Position numbers and translations under genes: made by a program. Below are positions 28,281-36,644 of a DNA stretch of 53,543 nucleotides, piece after piece; the first letter of the stretch is position 1; the number at the start of each line of letters is the position of its first letter. Below the pieces are notes generated by a model. The model was given only the letters and a program-made list of their open reading frames with translations. It was not told the DNA's origin and searched no databases. Location of the stretch: contig JAHHID010000051.1 in the NCBI GenBank assembly GCA_019359015.1, positions 1 through 53,543 of the forward strand, given 5' to 3'. This stretch comes from Spirirestis rafaelensis WJT71-NPBG6. GTDB lineage: Bacteria; Cyanobacteriota; Cyanobacteriia; Cyanobacteriales; Nostocaceae.

Positions 28281-28340
28281 GAAAAGACTTTTTTGAGATT
28301 TCTCCTGATTTAGCCATAGCTGTGACGGATAAACAAATGG

Positions 28341-28392
28341 TAGATGCACCCTAATTAAATTACTGCCCTCGGTTTCTGGCTGAGGGCTTTTA
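28341..28392 (+). ncRNA. solo predicted small RNA related to the 34.4-35.0 kb array
   Basis: It starts TAGATGCACCCT, identical to the 5' core of the four array units, continues with an AT-rich linker and ends in a hairpin GCCCTCGG / CTGAGGGC followed by TTTTATT. Total length about 52 nt, the same as the array units. The hairpin sequence itself differs from theirs, so what is shared is the single-stranded 5' part, as expected for a target-recognition seed. A weak -10-like GATAAA lies 8 nt before the core, the same spacing as in the array. It ends one base before the 3' end of the convergent ExoD gene and may also serve that gene as a terminator region. Confidence 0.5.
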
Positions 28393-29025
28393 TTATTTAA
28401 ATATGGCTGGTAGTAAACTGGGAGCCATCCAGACTGCATAAGCGATGAATGCAAATAGTAAGGTAGTCAAAGCAGTAAAAATATAGCTGATACACATCAA
28501 CAAACCATCAGATTCTATATTGGCGACTGCTAATAGCAAAATTCCGACGGTAGGGATCGGATTGGTTAGGGGAACAGGTGAAATTAACAATATTGCTAAC
28601 CAAGAGATACAAAGCCCATTTAATCGCCAAGTTAAAGGATTTTTGGCTATTTTCACCAACCTGGGGCGGGTGATTTTCTCTAATATTTTAGTGACTCGCC
28701 GCAGATTTTGTAAAAGTGTCTGAGCAAAAAGGCGAGGAAATTTGTAGTTGGCAATTTTTTTAGGTAGCCAAGGCTGGCGTCTACCTAAAACCATCTGTAC
28801 TGACAATAGCAAACAAGCGCCACCAAAAGGACCCGTGAACCCAGGTGGCATGGGAAATAAAAAGGGTAAAACTAGTAATGCGATCGTCAAACTAAAACCC
28901 CGTTCTGAGGTTTCTGCCACAATATTTCCTAAAGTCAGCGGCTCTTGCGCTAACCGTTGTAGGAGTAACTTAATATCTTGAGAAAACCTCAAATGTATTT
29001 GGCTTGATTTGATCTGAGTTGCCAC
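28393..29025 (-). CDS. ExoD-family membrane protein (exopolysaccharide synthesis)
   Basis: About 210 residues with the ExoD signature ETSERGFSLTIALLVLPFLF, then PMPPGFTGPFGG, and helices near the C-terminus (LLMCISYIFTALTTLLFAFI). ExoD proteins are inner-membrane proteins linked in Rhizobium to exopolysaccharide and alkaline tolerance; their biochemical role is unsettled. The GTG at 29025 (VATQIKSSQIHLRFSQDIKL) is chosen because homologs start near this point; an upstream ATG at 29127 would add 34 residues that look unlike the family and has no ribosome-binding site. Confidence 0.82.
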   Translation of the reverse strand: MATQIKSSQIHLRFSQDIKLLLQRLAQEPLTLGNIVAETSERGFSLTIALLVLPFLFPMPPGFTGPFGGACLLLSVQMVLGRRQPWLPKKIANYKFPRLFAQTLLQNLRRVTKILEKITRPRLVKIAKNPLTWRLNGLCISWLAILLISPVPLTNPIPTVGILLLAVANIESDGLLMCISYIFTALTTLLFAFIAYAVWMAPSLLPAIFK

Positions 29026-29178
29026 AATACCCTGCTTTAATTTAACTAAAACAATTTCATTACTTAGAAATACAATTACAGTTGAGGATATTTCATTAAA
29101 CCTCAAATTTTCATCTACCGCAAGCATGGCGTATGGTAATTAGTCATTGCCCTATGCCCATTGTCCTATGCCCAATCC

Positions 29179-33011: not shown

Positions 33012-34325
33012 TTAAGTTGTATACTCGGCGTTAATTTTCACATAGTCGTAACTTAGATCACAACCCCAAGCTTTACCCGAACCTTGTCCATTACCAACGC
33101 TAACTGCAATTATCACGGGATTATCTAGACTTTGAGCTTTGATTGTACTTCTATCCCCTGACAAATCATTGCTCATATTCGTCGCTGTCATATTTTCTGG
33201 TTTGGAAGCATTCGCTGCTGCTTGTTTTAAATAAGCACTCGCTGCGGCACGATCAAAAGGTATTGGTTGACCATTTTCCATCATCAAGAAATCCCCTAAT
33301 TTAATTTGCAGGTTTTCTTGCTCAAAAGGAATACCTGCACGTCCGGCAGCAGCAGCGATGCGTCCCCAATTTGGATCGCGTCCAAATATGGCAGACTTAA
33401 CTAAAGATGAGCCGGCAATGGTTTTGGCGATTTGATTAGCTGCTTGTTCATCGGTTGCCCCACTAACTTGCACTTCAATAAGACAAGTTGCACCTTCACC
33501 ATCACGAGCGATCGCTTTCGCTAAATGCTGGCATACTGCTGTTAACATGGCTTCTAATTTTTCGGCTTCTGCACCCATTTCGGTAATTGCTGGGGTGCGA
33601 GATTGACCGTTGGCAAGCGCAATCAAGCTATCATTGGTGCTAGTATCGCCATCAACGGTAATCGAATTAAAGCTTCTATCTGCTGCGCGACTTAACATTT
33701 GTTGCCAAAGGGTGGGCGCAACCGCTGCATCACAAGTGACAAATGCTAACATAGTTGCCATGTTCGGATGAATCATCCCCGAGCCTTTAGCAATTCCACC
33801 AATTCGCACCGGGCGATCGCCTATAGTTGTTTCTAAAGCGATGGATTTTGTTACTAAGTCGGTGGTGATAATCGCGCCGGCAGCTGCATCTGAACCTGTT
33901 TCTGATAATGCTGCTACCAGCTTGGGAATCGCACTCCGCAAAGGTTCCATCTTAATTCTTTGACCGATTACGCCCGTAGAAGCCAGTAAAATCGATTCGG
34001 AAGGAATATTTAACGCTTGCCCTATTAGCATCGCAGATTCTAAAGCATCTAACCAGCCTTCTTTACCCGTTGCGGCATTTGCTTGTCCCGCGTTGCAGAG
34101 TATAGCACGAGCGCTATGCTTTGCTTGCAAGCGTTGATGACAATAATCTACACAAGCGGCTTTTACTTGACAGGTGGTGAATACACCAGCTGCGATCGCC
34201 TCTACATCTGATACTATCAAAGCCAAATCCGGCAATCCCGAAGGTTTTAAACCTGCGGTAATTCCCGCTGCTCGATAACCTCTAGGTGCTGTCACACCAC
34301 CAGTAACTTCCTGCCAGTCTGCCAT
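33012..34325 (-). CDS. argJ: bifunctional glutamate N-acetyltransferase / amino-acid acetyltransferase
   Basis: A 437-residue ArgJ. It transfers acetyl from N-acetylornithine to glutamate (and may use acetyl-CoA), recycling acetyl in arginine synthesis. The autoprocessing site is seen as IHPNMATMLAF, cleaved before Thr191, the nucleophile of the beta chain. Start GGVTAPRGYRAAGITAGLK and end GCDLSYDYVKINAEYTT are family hallmarks. A roughly 25-residue Asn/Ser-rich insert (around SKPENMTATNMSNDLSGDRS) precedes the last strand. The start lies about 140 bp downstream of the last sRNA unit, on the same strand. Confidence 0.97.
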   Translation of the reverse strand: MADWQEVTGGVTAPRGYRAAGITAGLKPSGLPDLALIVSDVEAIAAGVFTTCQVKAACVDYCHQRLQAKHSARAILCNAGQANAATGKEGWLDALESAMLIGQALNIPSESILLASTGVIGQRIKMEPLRSAIPKLVAALSETGSDAAAGAIITTDLVTKSIALETTIGDRPVRIGGIAKGSGMIHPNMATMLAFVTCDAAVAPTLWQQMLSRAADRSFNSITVDGDTSTNDSLIALANGQSRTPAITEMGAEAEKLEAMLTAVCQHLAKAIARDGEGATCLIEVQVSGATDEQAANQIAKTIAGSSLVKSAIFGRDPNWGRIAAAAGRAGIPFEQENLQIKLGDFLMMENGQPIPFDRAAASAYLKQAAANASKPENMTATNMSNDLSGDRSTIKAQSLDNPVIIAVSVGNGQGSGKAWGCDLSYDYVKINAEYTT

Positions 34326-34463
34326 TATTCTTACCCAACAACTATTACTCTTTGCTTGAGGGGCGATTATATCAAGTCTTCGTCACCTGTAAGTAGTAAT
34401 TTGTTAGTTATTAATAACTTGCCTATTTGAAACGCTCGCGCAGGCTAGTTTAGGAAAAAAACG

Positions 34464-34514
34464 AAAAAGGAGAGCTACTTGGGCGGCTCTCCAGATCATC
34501 AGGGTGCATCTACT
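34464..34514 (-). ncRNA. predicted small RNA, array unit 4
   Basis: Promoter TTGCAC (34548-34543), 16-bp spacer, TACTAT (34526-34521); then, 8 nt on, TAGATGCACCCTGATGAT; then the terminator hairpin at 34492-34469 with loop CCAA-type and T5 (34468-34464). The stem has one mismatch relative to units 2 and 3. Transcript ends are predictions. It is the unit nearest argJ. Confidence 0.65.
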
Positions 34515-34611
34515 TAACACATAGTACCACAATCGGGGTGAGGTGCAATACCCCTTATTAACTTTTTTGTAAAAATCTTCTGACGCAACTTCTCCCAAAA
34601 CCACAAAAATG

Positions 34612-34662
34612 AAAAAGGAGAGCTACTTGGGTGGCTCTCCAAATCATCAGGGTGCATCTACT
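34612..34662 (-). ncRNA. predicted small RNA, array unit 3
   Basis: Promoter TTGCAC (34696-34691), 16-bp spacer, TACTAT (34674-34669); core TAGATGCACCCTGATGAT; hairpin GGAGAGCCAC-CCAA-GTAGCTCTCC (34640-34617, minus-strand sense, one G-U type pair) and T5 (34616-34612). About 50 nt. The hairpin plus T-run reads as an intrinsic terminator only in the minus sense, which fixes the strand. Confidence 0.68.
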
Positions 34663-34758
34663 TAACATATAGTACCATATTTGGGGTGAGGTGCAATACC
34701 CCCTATTAAGCTTTTGGTGAAAATCTCTGACGCAACTTCTCCCAAAACCACAAAAATG

Positions 34759-34809
34759 AAAAAGGAGAGCTACTTGGGTGGCTCTCCAAATCATCAGGGT
34801 GCATCTACT
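34759..34809 (-). ncRNA. predicted small RNA, array unit 2
   Basis: Promoter TTGCAC (34843-34838), 16-bp spacer, TACTAT (34821-34816); core TAGATGCACCCTGATGAT; hairpin at 34787-34764 identical to unit 3, then T5 (34763-34759). Predicted length about 50 nt. Confidence 0.68.
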
Positions 34810-34905
34810 TAACACATAGTACCATATTTGGGGTGAGGTGCAATACCCCCTATTAAGCTTTTGGTGAAAATCTCTGACGCAATTTTTCTCAAAACCACAA
34901 AAATG

Positions 34906-34956
34906 AAAAAGAAGAGCCACTTGGGTAGCTCTCCACATCATCAGGGTGCATCTAAT
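34906..34956 (-). ncRNA. predicted small RNA, array unit 1 (diverged)
   Basis: The -10 is TATACT (34968-34963), again 8 nt before TAGATGCACCCTGATGAT. The -35 is weak (no TTGCAC). The hairpin at 34934-34911 has several base changes, two of which unpair bases, but the T5 remains. The conserved core against a changing upstream region suggests selection on the RNA 5' part. Confidence 0.55.
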
Positions 34957-35048
34957 TATCACAGTATAGCATTTTAGGACTGAGGTGTTACACCCATCTT
35001 TAATGTACTTTTTATCAAGTTCTTGTGAAGAATTATCCGGGAAAATAC

Positions 35049-35165
35049 AGTGAAGAGGGGGAGGGGGGGACAAGGGGAGTATGATTCAAAAATTCTCCTT
35101 GTCTCCTTGTCTCCCTGTCTCCTTGTCTCCCTGTCTCCTTGTCTCCCTTGTCTCCCTTGTCCCCT
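35049..35165. repeat. short tandem repeats TTGTCTCC-type at the 3' end of gatB
   Basis: A GGGGGAGGGGGG-type arm, an AT spacer (ATGATTCAAAAATTC) and then many TTGTCTCC(C) units of 7-9 bp. Same design as 24783-24880. It lies immediately after gatB on the transcribed side and before the sRNA array. Confidence 0.85.
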
Positions 35166-35168
35166 TGA

Positions 35169-36644
35169 CTAGTTATTCAACTTTTGATCTACCAATTCGT
35201 TAGTCAGTTTTGGATCTGCACGTCCACCAGTTTGTTTGAGAACTTGTCCAACAAAAAAGCCTTTGAGGTTGGTTTTACCACTCTTGTATTTCTCTAGTTC
35301 CTTGGGATTGGCGGCGATGATTTGGTCAATAATGGGTTCGAGTACGCTAGCGTCAGAGATTTTTTCTTCACCTTTGAATACTTCATCGGGAGAATTACCA
35401 GCTAGCAACTCTGGTAATTTCTCTTTTGCTTTGTTGCTACCAATGGTACCCTTTTCAATTAGGGTGATAAGTTTTGCCAGATTCGTAGGAGTGAGGGCAA
35501 TTTCGGTGATGCTGAGTTTTTGCTTGTTGAGGTAGGCAGCGATATCGCCCATAATCCAGTTAGCTGCTTGTTTGGCATTTGCACCTTTGGCGATCGCCTC
35601 TTCAAAGTACGCAGCAACACTAGTTTCCTCTGTCAACACCCGCGCATCGTAAGGTGAAAGTCCCAAATCAGATTCATAACGATGACGTTTTTCTGCTGGT
35701 AATTCTGGCAGTGTACTACGCCAAGATTCTAATTGTTCGTTTGTTACTTCAATCGGTGCTAAATCTGGTTCTGGGAAATAGCGATAATCGCTGCTTCCTT
35801 CTTTAACGCGCATACTAATAGTGCGTTGAGAAGTTTCTTCCCAAAGACGAGTTTCTTGAATAATGCGATGGCCAGCTTCTACTGCGGCTATTTGGCGTTC
35901 AATTTCATATTCAATCGCTCTTTGGATGGCGTTGAAAGAGTTCATATTCTTGATTTCCACCTTCGTGCCAAACTCTTTTTGTCCAATGGGACGCACAGAG
36001 ATATTGACATCACAGCGGAGAGAACCTTCTTGCATGTTACCGTCACTGACACCGATATAGCGGACAATGCGGCGTAATTCTTGAGCATATTCAGCAGCTT
36101 CTTGTCCAGAACGCAAATCTGGTTCTGAGACAATTTCGATCAACGGTATACCTGCTCGGTTGTAGTCTACCAGAGAATAAGTAGAACCAGAAAGGCGATC
36201 GCTTCCCGCGTGTACTAATTTTCCCGCATCTTCTTCCATGTGCAGACGAGTGACGCCGATTTTTTTCCGCATCGGATTACCATCAGCATCGACTAACTCA
36301 ATTTCTAACCAGCCATGTTCAGCAATGGGTAAGTCGTATTGAGAAATTTGGTAATTTTTGGGTAAATCGGGATAAAAATACTGTTTGCGGTCAAACTTGC
36401 TATATTTAGCGATTTGGCAATTTAGCGCTAAACCCGCTTTCACAGCGTATTCTAATACCTTTTCGTTGAGTACAGGTAATACCCCAGGTAGACCCATACA
36501 AACCGGGTCAATGTTAGTATTGGGGTCAGCACCAAAAGCCGTAGAACTATTAGAGAAAATCTTGGTGTTAGTACTCAGCTGACAATGGGTTTCTAAACCA
36601 ATAATCGCTTCGTACTCAGTTTTTACAAGAGCAGCTGAAGTCAT
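35169..36644 (-). CDS. gatB: Asp-tRNA(Asn)/Glu-tRNA(Gln) amidotransferase subunit B
   Basis: A 491-residue GatB. It carries out, with GatA and GatC, the transamidation that makes Gln-tRNA(Gln) in cyanobacteria, which lack GlnRS. Seen: YEAIIGLETHCQLSTNTKIF, DPVCMGLPGVLPVLNEKVLE, KNYQISQYDLPI, EDAGKLVH and the tail domain ending GRADPKLTNELVDQKL. Length and motifs are normal. The other subunits are not in the window, as is usual in cyanobacteria. Confidence 0.98.
   Translation of the reverse strand: MTSAALVKTEYEAIIGLETHCQLSTNTKIFSNSSTAFGADPNTNIDPVCMGLPGVLPVLNEKVLEYAVKAGLALNCQIAKYSKFDRKQYFYPDLPKNYQISQYDLPIAEHGWLEIELVDADGNPMRKKIGVTRLHMEEDAGKLVHAGSDRLSGSTYSLVDYNRAGIPLIEIVSEPDLRSGQEAAEYAQELRRIVRYIGVSDGNMQEGSLRCDVNISVRPIGQKEFGTKVEIKNMNSFNAIQRAIEYEIERQIAAVEAGHRIIQETRLWEETSQRTISMRVKEGSSDYRYFPEPDLAPIEVTNEQLESWRSTLPELPAEKRHRYESDLGLSPYDARVLTEETSVAAYFEEAIAKGANAKQAANWIMGDIAAYLNKQKLSITEIALTPTNLAKLITLIEKGTIGSNKAKEKLPELLAGNSPDEVFKGEEKISDASVLEPIIDQIIAANPKELEKYKSGKTNLKGFFVGQVLKQTGGRADPKLTNELVDQKLNN

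Follow-up and report, generated by a model that had tools for sequence, protein, structure and literature searches.

The window analysed here is a stretch of 53,543 nucleotides from Spirirestis rafaelensis WJT71-NPBG6. Between its gatB and argJ genes lies a tandem array (34457-34963; period 147, 3.4 copies, 93% matches by TRF) of four predicted small RNA genes on the minus strand. All three elements, gatB, the array and argJ, point in one direction. The features are listed below, with RNA start positions derived from the -10 boxes.

35169..36644, minus strand: gatB, conserved upstream neighbour (NCBIfam NF004012, 701.8 bits)
34985..34995, minus strand: unit 1 degenerate HetR-type palindrome GGGTGTAACAC (GGGn5CAC; 5/6 bases of GGGn5CCC)
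34963..34968, minus strand: unit 1 -10 box TATACT (sequence and consensus scan)
34906..34956, minus strand: unit 1, predicted sRNA (core 34954-34937, hairpin 34934-34911, T5; repeat, promoter/terminator scan, fold)
34838..34848, minus strand: unit 2 degenerate HetR-type palindrome GGGTATTGCAC (5/6 bases)
34816..34821, minus strand: unit 2 -10 box TACTAT (sequence)
34759..34809, minus strand: unit 2, predicted sRNA (repeat, core match, fold)
34691..34701, minus strand: unit 3 degenerate HetR-type palindrome GGGTATTGCAC (5/6 bases)
34669..34674, minus strand: unit 3 -10 box TACTAT (sequence)
34612..34662, minus strand: unit 3, predicted sRNA (repeat, core match, fold)
34543..34553, minus strand: unit 4 degenerate HetR-type palindrome GGGTATTGCAC (5/6 bases)
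34521..34526, minus strand: unit 4 -10 box TACTAT (sequence)
34464..34514, minus strand: unit 4, predicted sRNA (repeat, core match, fold)
33012..34325, minus strand: argJ, conserved downstream neighbour (NCBIfam TIGR00120, 520.9 bits)

Each unit consists of a -10 box, an invariant core (TAGATGCACCCTGATGAT), a hairpin and a T-run. The cores start at 34954, 34807, 34660 and 34512. The resulting spacings of 147, 147 and 148 bp, together with the TRF result, confirm the four-unit array described in an earlier note on this DNA, and the NCBIfam matches bear out its placement of the array between gatB and argJ. The promoter and terminator elements given there are also found in the sequence: units 2 to 4 carry TTGCAC-16-TACTAT, the core begins 8 nt past the -10 box in all four units, and the hairpin, 24 nt long, is followed by T5. 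That note had further described an invariant core beside a strongly diverged unit 1 promoter region. An alignment of the units agrees, with the core identical in 4/4, the -10 box and hairpin kept, the linkers variable, and unit 1, with the -10 box TATACT, diverged in its upstream region.

A simple consensus scan for promoters and terminators reported those of unit 1 only; units 2 to 4 are therefore missed by such a scan alone and are revealed by repetition and conservation. Folded in isolation, the 51-nt units reach -13.3 to -15.9 kcal/mol (z -2.3 to -2.9), and 1 to 5 per 200 shuffles were as stable. Units 2 and 3 leave their first 22 nt free of pairing in the best fold, and units 1 and 4 show weak 5' pairing. 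Short TCTCCTTG-type repeats lie at 35094-35167, between the array and gatB, and similar ones occur elsewhere in the window.

The array units contain the 5' core of NsiR1, UAGAUGCACCCUGAU. As described in the available text of PMC9045159, NsiR1 is an RNA of ~60 nt that is encoded in 12 tandem copies at hetF and transcribed from DIF1 promoters; its targets are hetF and alr3234. DIF1 promoters need HetZ (PMC7377430, available text). The likeness to NsiR1 lies in this 5' core; the hairpins differ, and the units score 27.3, 26.1, 26.1 and 21.1 bits against the NsiR1 model RF02399, all below the Rfam gathering score of 39. The DIF1 motif TCCGGA is found near -35 in none of the four units. It is likewise absent from all 219 distinct gatB-argJ-type units (mostly Nostocaceae) collected from genomes of that family and from the matches listed in a named pattern scan, which include at least one record from outside the family. 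By contrast, 78 distinct NsiR1-type units out of 11 genomes have TCCGGA in 44 cases and the palindrome GGGn5CCC, discussed below, in none.

The array adjoins gatB and argJ and is neither upstream of nor antisense to hetF. An ordinary NsiR1 array exists in the same genome (contig C8), where 10 units, nine of them with TCCGGA, lie upstream of the HetF gene (NF045509, 1417.8 bits). Thus, the array shares its seed with NsiR1 but not its locus, hairpin or promoter motif. The earlier note had proposed a multi-copy small RNA with an NsiR1-related 5' core, and had suggested comparing the units with NsiR1 and with other cyanobacterial genomes. The common core, the sub-threshold RF02399 matches and the joint occurrence of promoter, core and hairpin in relatives support this proposal. 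Between the two possibilities that it had offered, an NsiR1 relative or a separate family, the other terminator, the lack of DIF1 and the position away from hetF favour a separate branch.

Further NsiR1-like units were encountered. The sole RF02399 match over the cut-off in the window (28338-28394, plus strand, 42.4 bits) has TCCTGA upstream, which differs from DIF1 in one base, and points toward the 3' end of an ORF at 28393-29127. A lone unit with an exact TCCGGA promoter (G000:C20, L029; core 36437, minus strand) is flanked by ORFs that appear by eye to be lgt and cobM, and a weak unit of 29 bits (G000:C4, L030; core 101211, minus strand) has the core variant TAGATGTACCCTGA. In one non-Nostocaceae genome (G249, family f2), ten tandem NsiR1-type units (L357, 3414-4700) are preceded by TCCGGA, TCCTGA or similar sequences, and no match to hetF was found within 9 kb around them. 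A 57-nt RNA of Limnospira that resembles NsiR1 (PMC8400943, available text) may belong to either branch.

Array-like DNA is present in 211/217 Nostocaceae genomes (blastn, E <= 0.001), and argJ and/or gatB is adjacent at all of the 30 best blastn loci. These 30 loci and 39 regions hand-picked from the match list for more genera make up a family set of 69 loci, two of which come from one genome (G001). The core pattern detected a unit in 68 of the 69, with 1 to 7 units per locus; the core of the locus that it missed (L218) differs by one base. Either argJ or gatB lies in the same orientation at 67/68 Nostocaceae loci, and the last core precedes argJ by 132-601 nt at the 59 family loci where argJ was found. 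The named pattern scan yielded at least 80 loci; among the matches listed, 73/80 have argJ or gatB and 7/80 have neither in the available flank. Within the window's genus, an array match was obtained in 3/4 other genomes, the fourth (G080) being 54% complete.

A search with the hairpin only, inside the fetched loci, returned 298 hairpins, of which 287 have GATGCA ahead of them, a proportion that favours the core somewhat because similarity or a core pattern had been used to choose the loci. As judged by eye, the other 11 comprise six cores that are one base off, three that are more changed and two that are decayed. Family hairpins stand behind decayed cores at L033 (1404) and L141 (2090), and these are apparently dead units.

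A covariance model (R1) built on 116 distinct units matches 268/388 genomes of the order (E <= 1e-4), about 70 of them Nostocaceae, and 191/388 genomes of the class (E <= 1e-5), although these totals mix both RNA branches because R1 also catches NsiR1-type units at low scores. Elsewhere in the order, gatB and/or argJ occurs in the flank of 24/33 loci, and several loci have gatB alone in flanks of 1.5 kb. In other orders, a core-pattern unit occurs in 48/49 loci, and gatB or argJ is found at 35/49 within the flanks fetched, which measure about 0.5 kb at 40 of the loci and 1.5 kb at the other 9. The earlier note had raised the possibility of a new locus; the gatB-argJ locus is not peculiar to this genome and is conserved across the order and beyond. 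The array of predicted sRNA genes in the window is real, and it represents an amplified case of an NsiR1-core family that is widespread.

The promoters of the relatives reveal a feature that is absent from the earlier note. A palindrome, GGGn5CCC, occupies the position of the -35 box and overlaps the -35 region. Aligned, the 219 distinct units show an A-rich stretch, then the palindrome, then TGnTATAcT. The exact palindrome occurs at -41 (counted from the T of TAGATG) in 104/219 units, and all 112 exact placements fall between -42 and -38, with none elsewhere among 80 starts; shuffled upstream sequence gave a mean of 0.05 units with an exact site per 12 start positions. Both arms, GGG and CCC, are kept while the centre varies, with TGACA at the centre of 42/70 exact placements (69 distinct units). 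In the available text of two papers, GGGn5CCC is the recognition core of HetR (PMC4192349) and is called indispensable, and paired changes in GGG and CCC abolish HetR binding in vitro (PMC4649674). Common forms of the palindrome, such as AGGGGTCTTGCCCCTCA, resemble the HetR sites of hetP (GAGGGGTCTAACCCCTC) and hetZ (GGGTCTAgCCCagCA) given in the available part of PMC4192349.

At least one exact site is present at 38/68 Nostocaceae loci. When these loci are divided by unit number, the site occurs at 34/39 multi-unit loci and 4/29 single-unit loci. Elsewhere in the order, promoters were examined in 91 genomes from outside the family, and 89 of these have a core unit (there is none in G470 of family f8 and G260 of family f18). 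Outside families f8, f18 and f6, 53/55 of these genomes have the exact site. In f8 and f18, the core and hairpin are retained and the exact site is found in 0/33 genomes, the best matching at 4/6 bases. In other orders, all 48 genomes with a core-pattern unit have the exact site. So does the forty-ninth (G538), whose core is one base off, giving 49/49 when counted irrespective of hetR.

This distribution was compared with that of HetR, sought as Pfam PF03574 over 80 genomes and found in 53/80, with no match in 14 control genomes. Among 79 non-family genomes, with the window's genome left out, the exact site is present in 49/52 with hetR vs 2/27 without (Fisher p 4e-15, a value that overstates the case because the rows are related). 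Two of the three hetR-bearing exceptions (G501 and G274) have 5/6 bases; the only match in the third (G221) is a unit with another hairpin, TCCGGA upstream and 4/6 bases. The two genomes with the site and no hetR (G454 and G404) are drafts that are 89% and 82% complete. In f8 and f18, hetR is absent from 25/25 tested genomes, which keep the RNA and have 0/25 exact sites. A GatB tree of 50 rows, labelled as f8 and f18 versus the rest, requires the label to change three times or more along well-supported branches; the rows that lack hetR therefore do not form a single clade. Outside Nostocaceae, therefore, promoters of the NsiR1-core family track HetR. The record of Coleofasciculus sp. LEGE 07092 (L129 / L331) has a unit and promoter identical to those of a hetR-bearing genome (G401); Coleofasciculus is not known to form heterocysts.

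HetR was doubted at first as a regulator, because the site in the window is imperfect, and the alignment of relatives revived the idea. All four units read GGGn5CAC, one base short of the exact palindrome. Three further genomes of the genus gave a match, and every unit examined in them has 5/6 bases; the loci examined in genus g53 have one unit with GGGn5CTC. In the available part of the HetR ChIP-seq table of Anabaena 7120 (PMC4192349), no peak could be assigned to the gatB-argJ locus by way of a presumed argJ locus tag. Because the site is degenerate in the genus, exact at 38/68 family loci and without an assignable peak, HetR control is uncertain in the window's organism, and it may have been weakened or lost in the genus.

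Two other leads were set aside. The promoter contains a GTAn8CAC stretch that might suggest NtcA control, but it lies ~10 bp too near the predicted RNA start to serve as a class II site. In the window's own genome, two exact matches to AGGGGTn4CCCCT adjoin ORFs with no tie to HetR by eye.

The array might be an ordinary NsiR1 array, a displaced copy of the one at hetF with regulation and targets unchanged. The identical 5' core, the RF02399 matches of 21-27 bits and the presence of a hetF array in the same genome are all compatible with such an origin. However, the hairpin differs and the scores stay below the cut-off of 39, TCCGGA is found in 0/219 units vs 44/78 for the NsiR1 type, and the separate locus is conserved in other families and orders, which together make a displaced copy improbable. 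We consider it about as improbable that the units are promoter-terminator modules acting in cis, which tune argJ transcription by read-through or end that of gatB. Their orientation matches both neighbours and the last core lies close enough to argJ (132-601 nt at 59 loci) for this to be imagined, but several loci in other families have gatB alone in flanks of 1.5 kb, a terminator closes each unit, the core is conserved beyond what a terminator needs, and the units have been amplified in tandem. The least credible of these readings, and in our judgement a very improbable one, is that of a degenerating repeat array with no function in this genome. It would account for a HetR-type site that is degenerate in 4/4 units and for the failure of the promoter scan to report units 2 to 4; it fits poorly with a core that is invariant in 4/4 while the linkers differ, with the retained -10 box and hairpin, and with the presence of the array in 3/4 other genomes of the genus, given that the fourth is 54% complete.

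A different doubt concerns the palindrome, which may be bound by another regulator or be a mere -35 element for a sigma factor, with hetR and the site lost together for another reason. The frequent centre TGACA (42/70 exact placements) does resemble a -35 box, and HetR binding at this locus is a prediction from sequence. Nevertheless, both arms are kept around a variable centre, the palindrome fits the published HetR core, and the site is absent from two hetR-less families that do not form a single clade and that retain the RNA. We consider this reading of the palindrome unlikely.

We consider it probable that the four units are amplified copies of a small RNA gene that is ancient, under HetR control, built on the NsiR1 core and at home in the gatB-argJ neighbourhood. 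Each copy, with its own promoter and terminator, would yield an RNA of ~50 nt made up of the invariant 5' core GAUGCACCCUGAUGAU and the terminator hairpin. In hetR-bearing cyanobacteria, HetR would bind GGGn5CCC in place of a -35 box, beside a TGn-extended -10, and so control the RNA directly. The palindrome covers -35 beside an extended -10, as DIF1 does in NsiR1 promoters; this arrangement fits an activator standing in for a -35 box, and we infer activation, with repression as a further possibility. In the two hetR-less families, the RNA would persist with a promoter that lacks the site. The gatB-argJ RNA would then be a sibling of NsiR1, with a common core and a different promoter arm (HetR site vs DIF1). 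More tentatively, and with slightly less than even confidence, we suggest that HetR had the gatB-argJ RNA as an ancestral direct target, perhaps the one conserved most widely, and that its first role in filamentous cyanobacteria, well ahead of heterocysts, was to switch this RNA. NsiR1 would have branched off later, or in parallel, retaining the seed and coming under DIF1 control.

Like NsiR1, the RNA would use its core to pair with mRNAs, and the regions where translation starts are the most likely sites. In the available text of PMC9045159, NsiR1.4 covers the start codon of alr3234, and by analogy a block of translation is the most likely mode of action. The hairpin shows modest covariation: the count of two-sided cells is 15 vs 4.2 in shuffled alignments, a value reached by 0/500 shuffles, and three other measures were reached by 43 to 148 of 500. 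Target searches, by complements of the core in the window's own genome and in HetP-family mRNA leaders, found no convincing partner. Of 17 exact 10-mer complements in that genome, 13 are in sRNA genes and 4 elsewhere; two of the latter lie 64 nt before a pyruvate kinase-like ORF and 70 nt before a glycosyltransferase-like ORF (named by eye, in this genome only). Among 17 HetP matches, one was left out (a frame with two stops) and 9 yielded no frame, and the 7 leaders scored contain no strong pairing site for the core.

No description of a small RNA gene between gatB and argJ was found in the accessible portions, supplements excluded, of the open-licence literature on NsiR1, argJ, gatB or HetR sRNAs, nor in the available parts of PMC10287535, PMC3610870 and PMC9679502. 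A search of the open-licence literature for the locus tag alr2073 found no mention. The array adds a predicted small RNA that the Rfam NsiR1 model, at its cut-off, does not report in the window. As a predicted direct HetR target in many families and at least two orders, often in single copy, the gatB-argJ RNA makes a role of HetR in species without heterocysts testable. The association of site and hetR may help to explain that role; if the more tentative reading, that of an ancestral HetR target, is true, the obscure function of HetR in non-heterocystous species would run, at least in part, through one small RNA. Two RNA branches that share a seed would also carry two promoter motifs, the HetR site and DIF1, of the same developmental network.

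NsiR1 is among the closest known systems. It has in common with the gatB-argJ RNA the 5' core, a short transcript with a terminator hairpin, and tandem copies each with a promoter, and it differs in its location at hetF, its hairpin, its DIF1 motif in place of a HetR-type palindrome and its standing relative to the RF02399 cut-off, below which the array falls. Another candidate is sRNA 4547237r of PCC 7120, an RNA of ~51 nt that, in the available text of PMC4734099, belongs to heterocyst formers and is observed in dense cultures and once nitrogen has been deficient for long. Its length and its occurrence in heterocyst formers agree with our prediction, whereas its position and strand disagree with the presumed argJ locus tag, and TCCGGA, which would link the locus to it, is found near none of seven 7120-like loci. 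The promoters resemble those recognized by HetR at hetP and hetZ in carrying GGGn5CCC, in many cases with CA directly behind it, like the site at hetZ (PMC4192349, available text). They differ in that the predicted site would act on a gene for a small RNA instead of a protein, and in that it occurs across many families, not in heterocyst formers alone, and is one base off in the window. Finally, the array is like the multi-copy sibling sRNAs discussed in the available part of PMC9045159 in having several near-identical copies with a common seed; here, however, two seed-sharing branches bear two promoter motifs of one developmental network.
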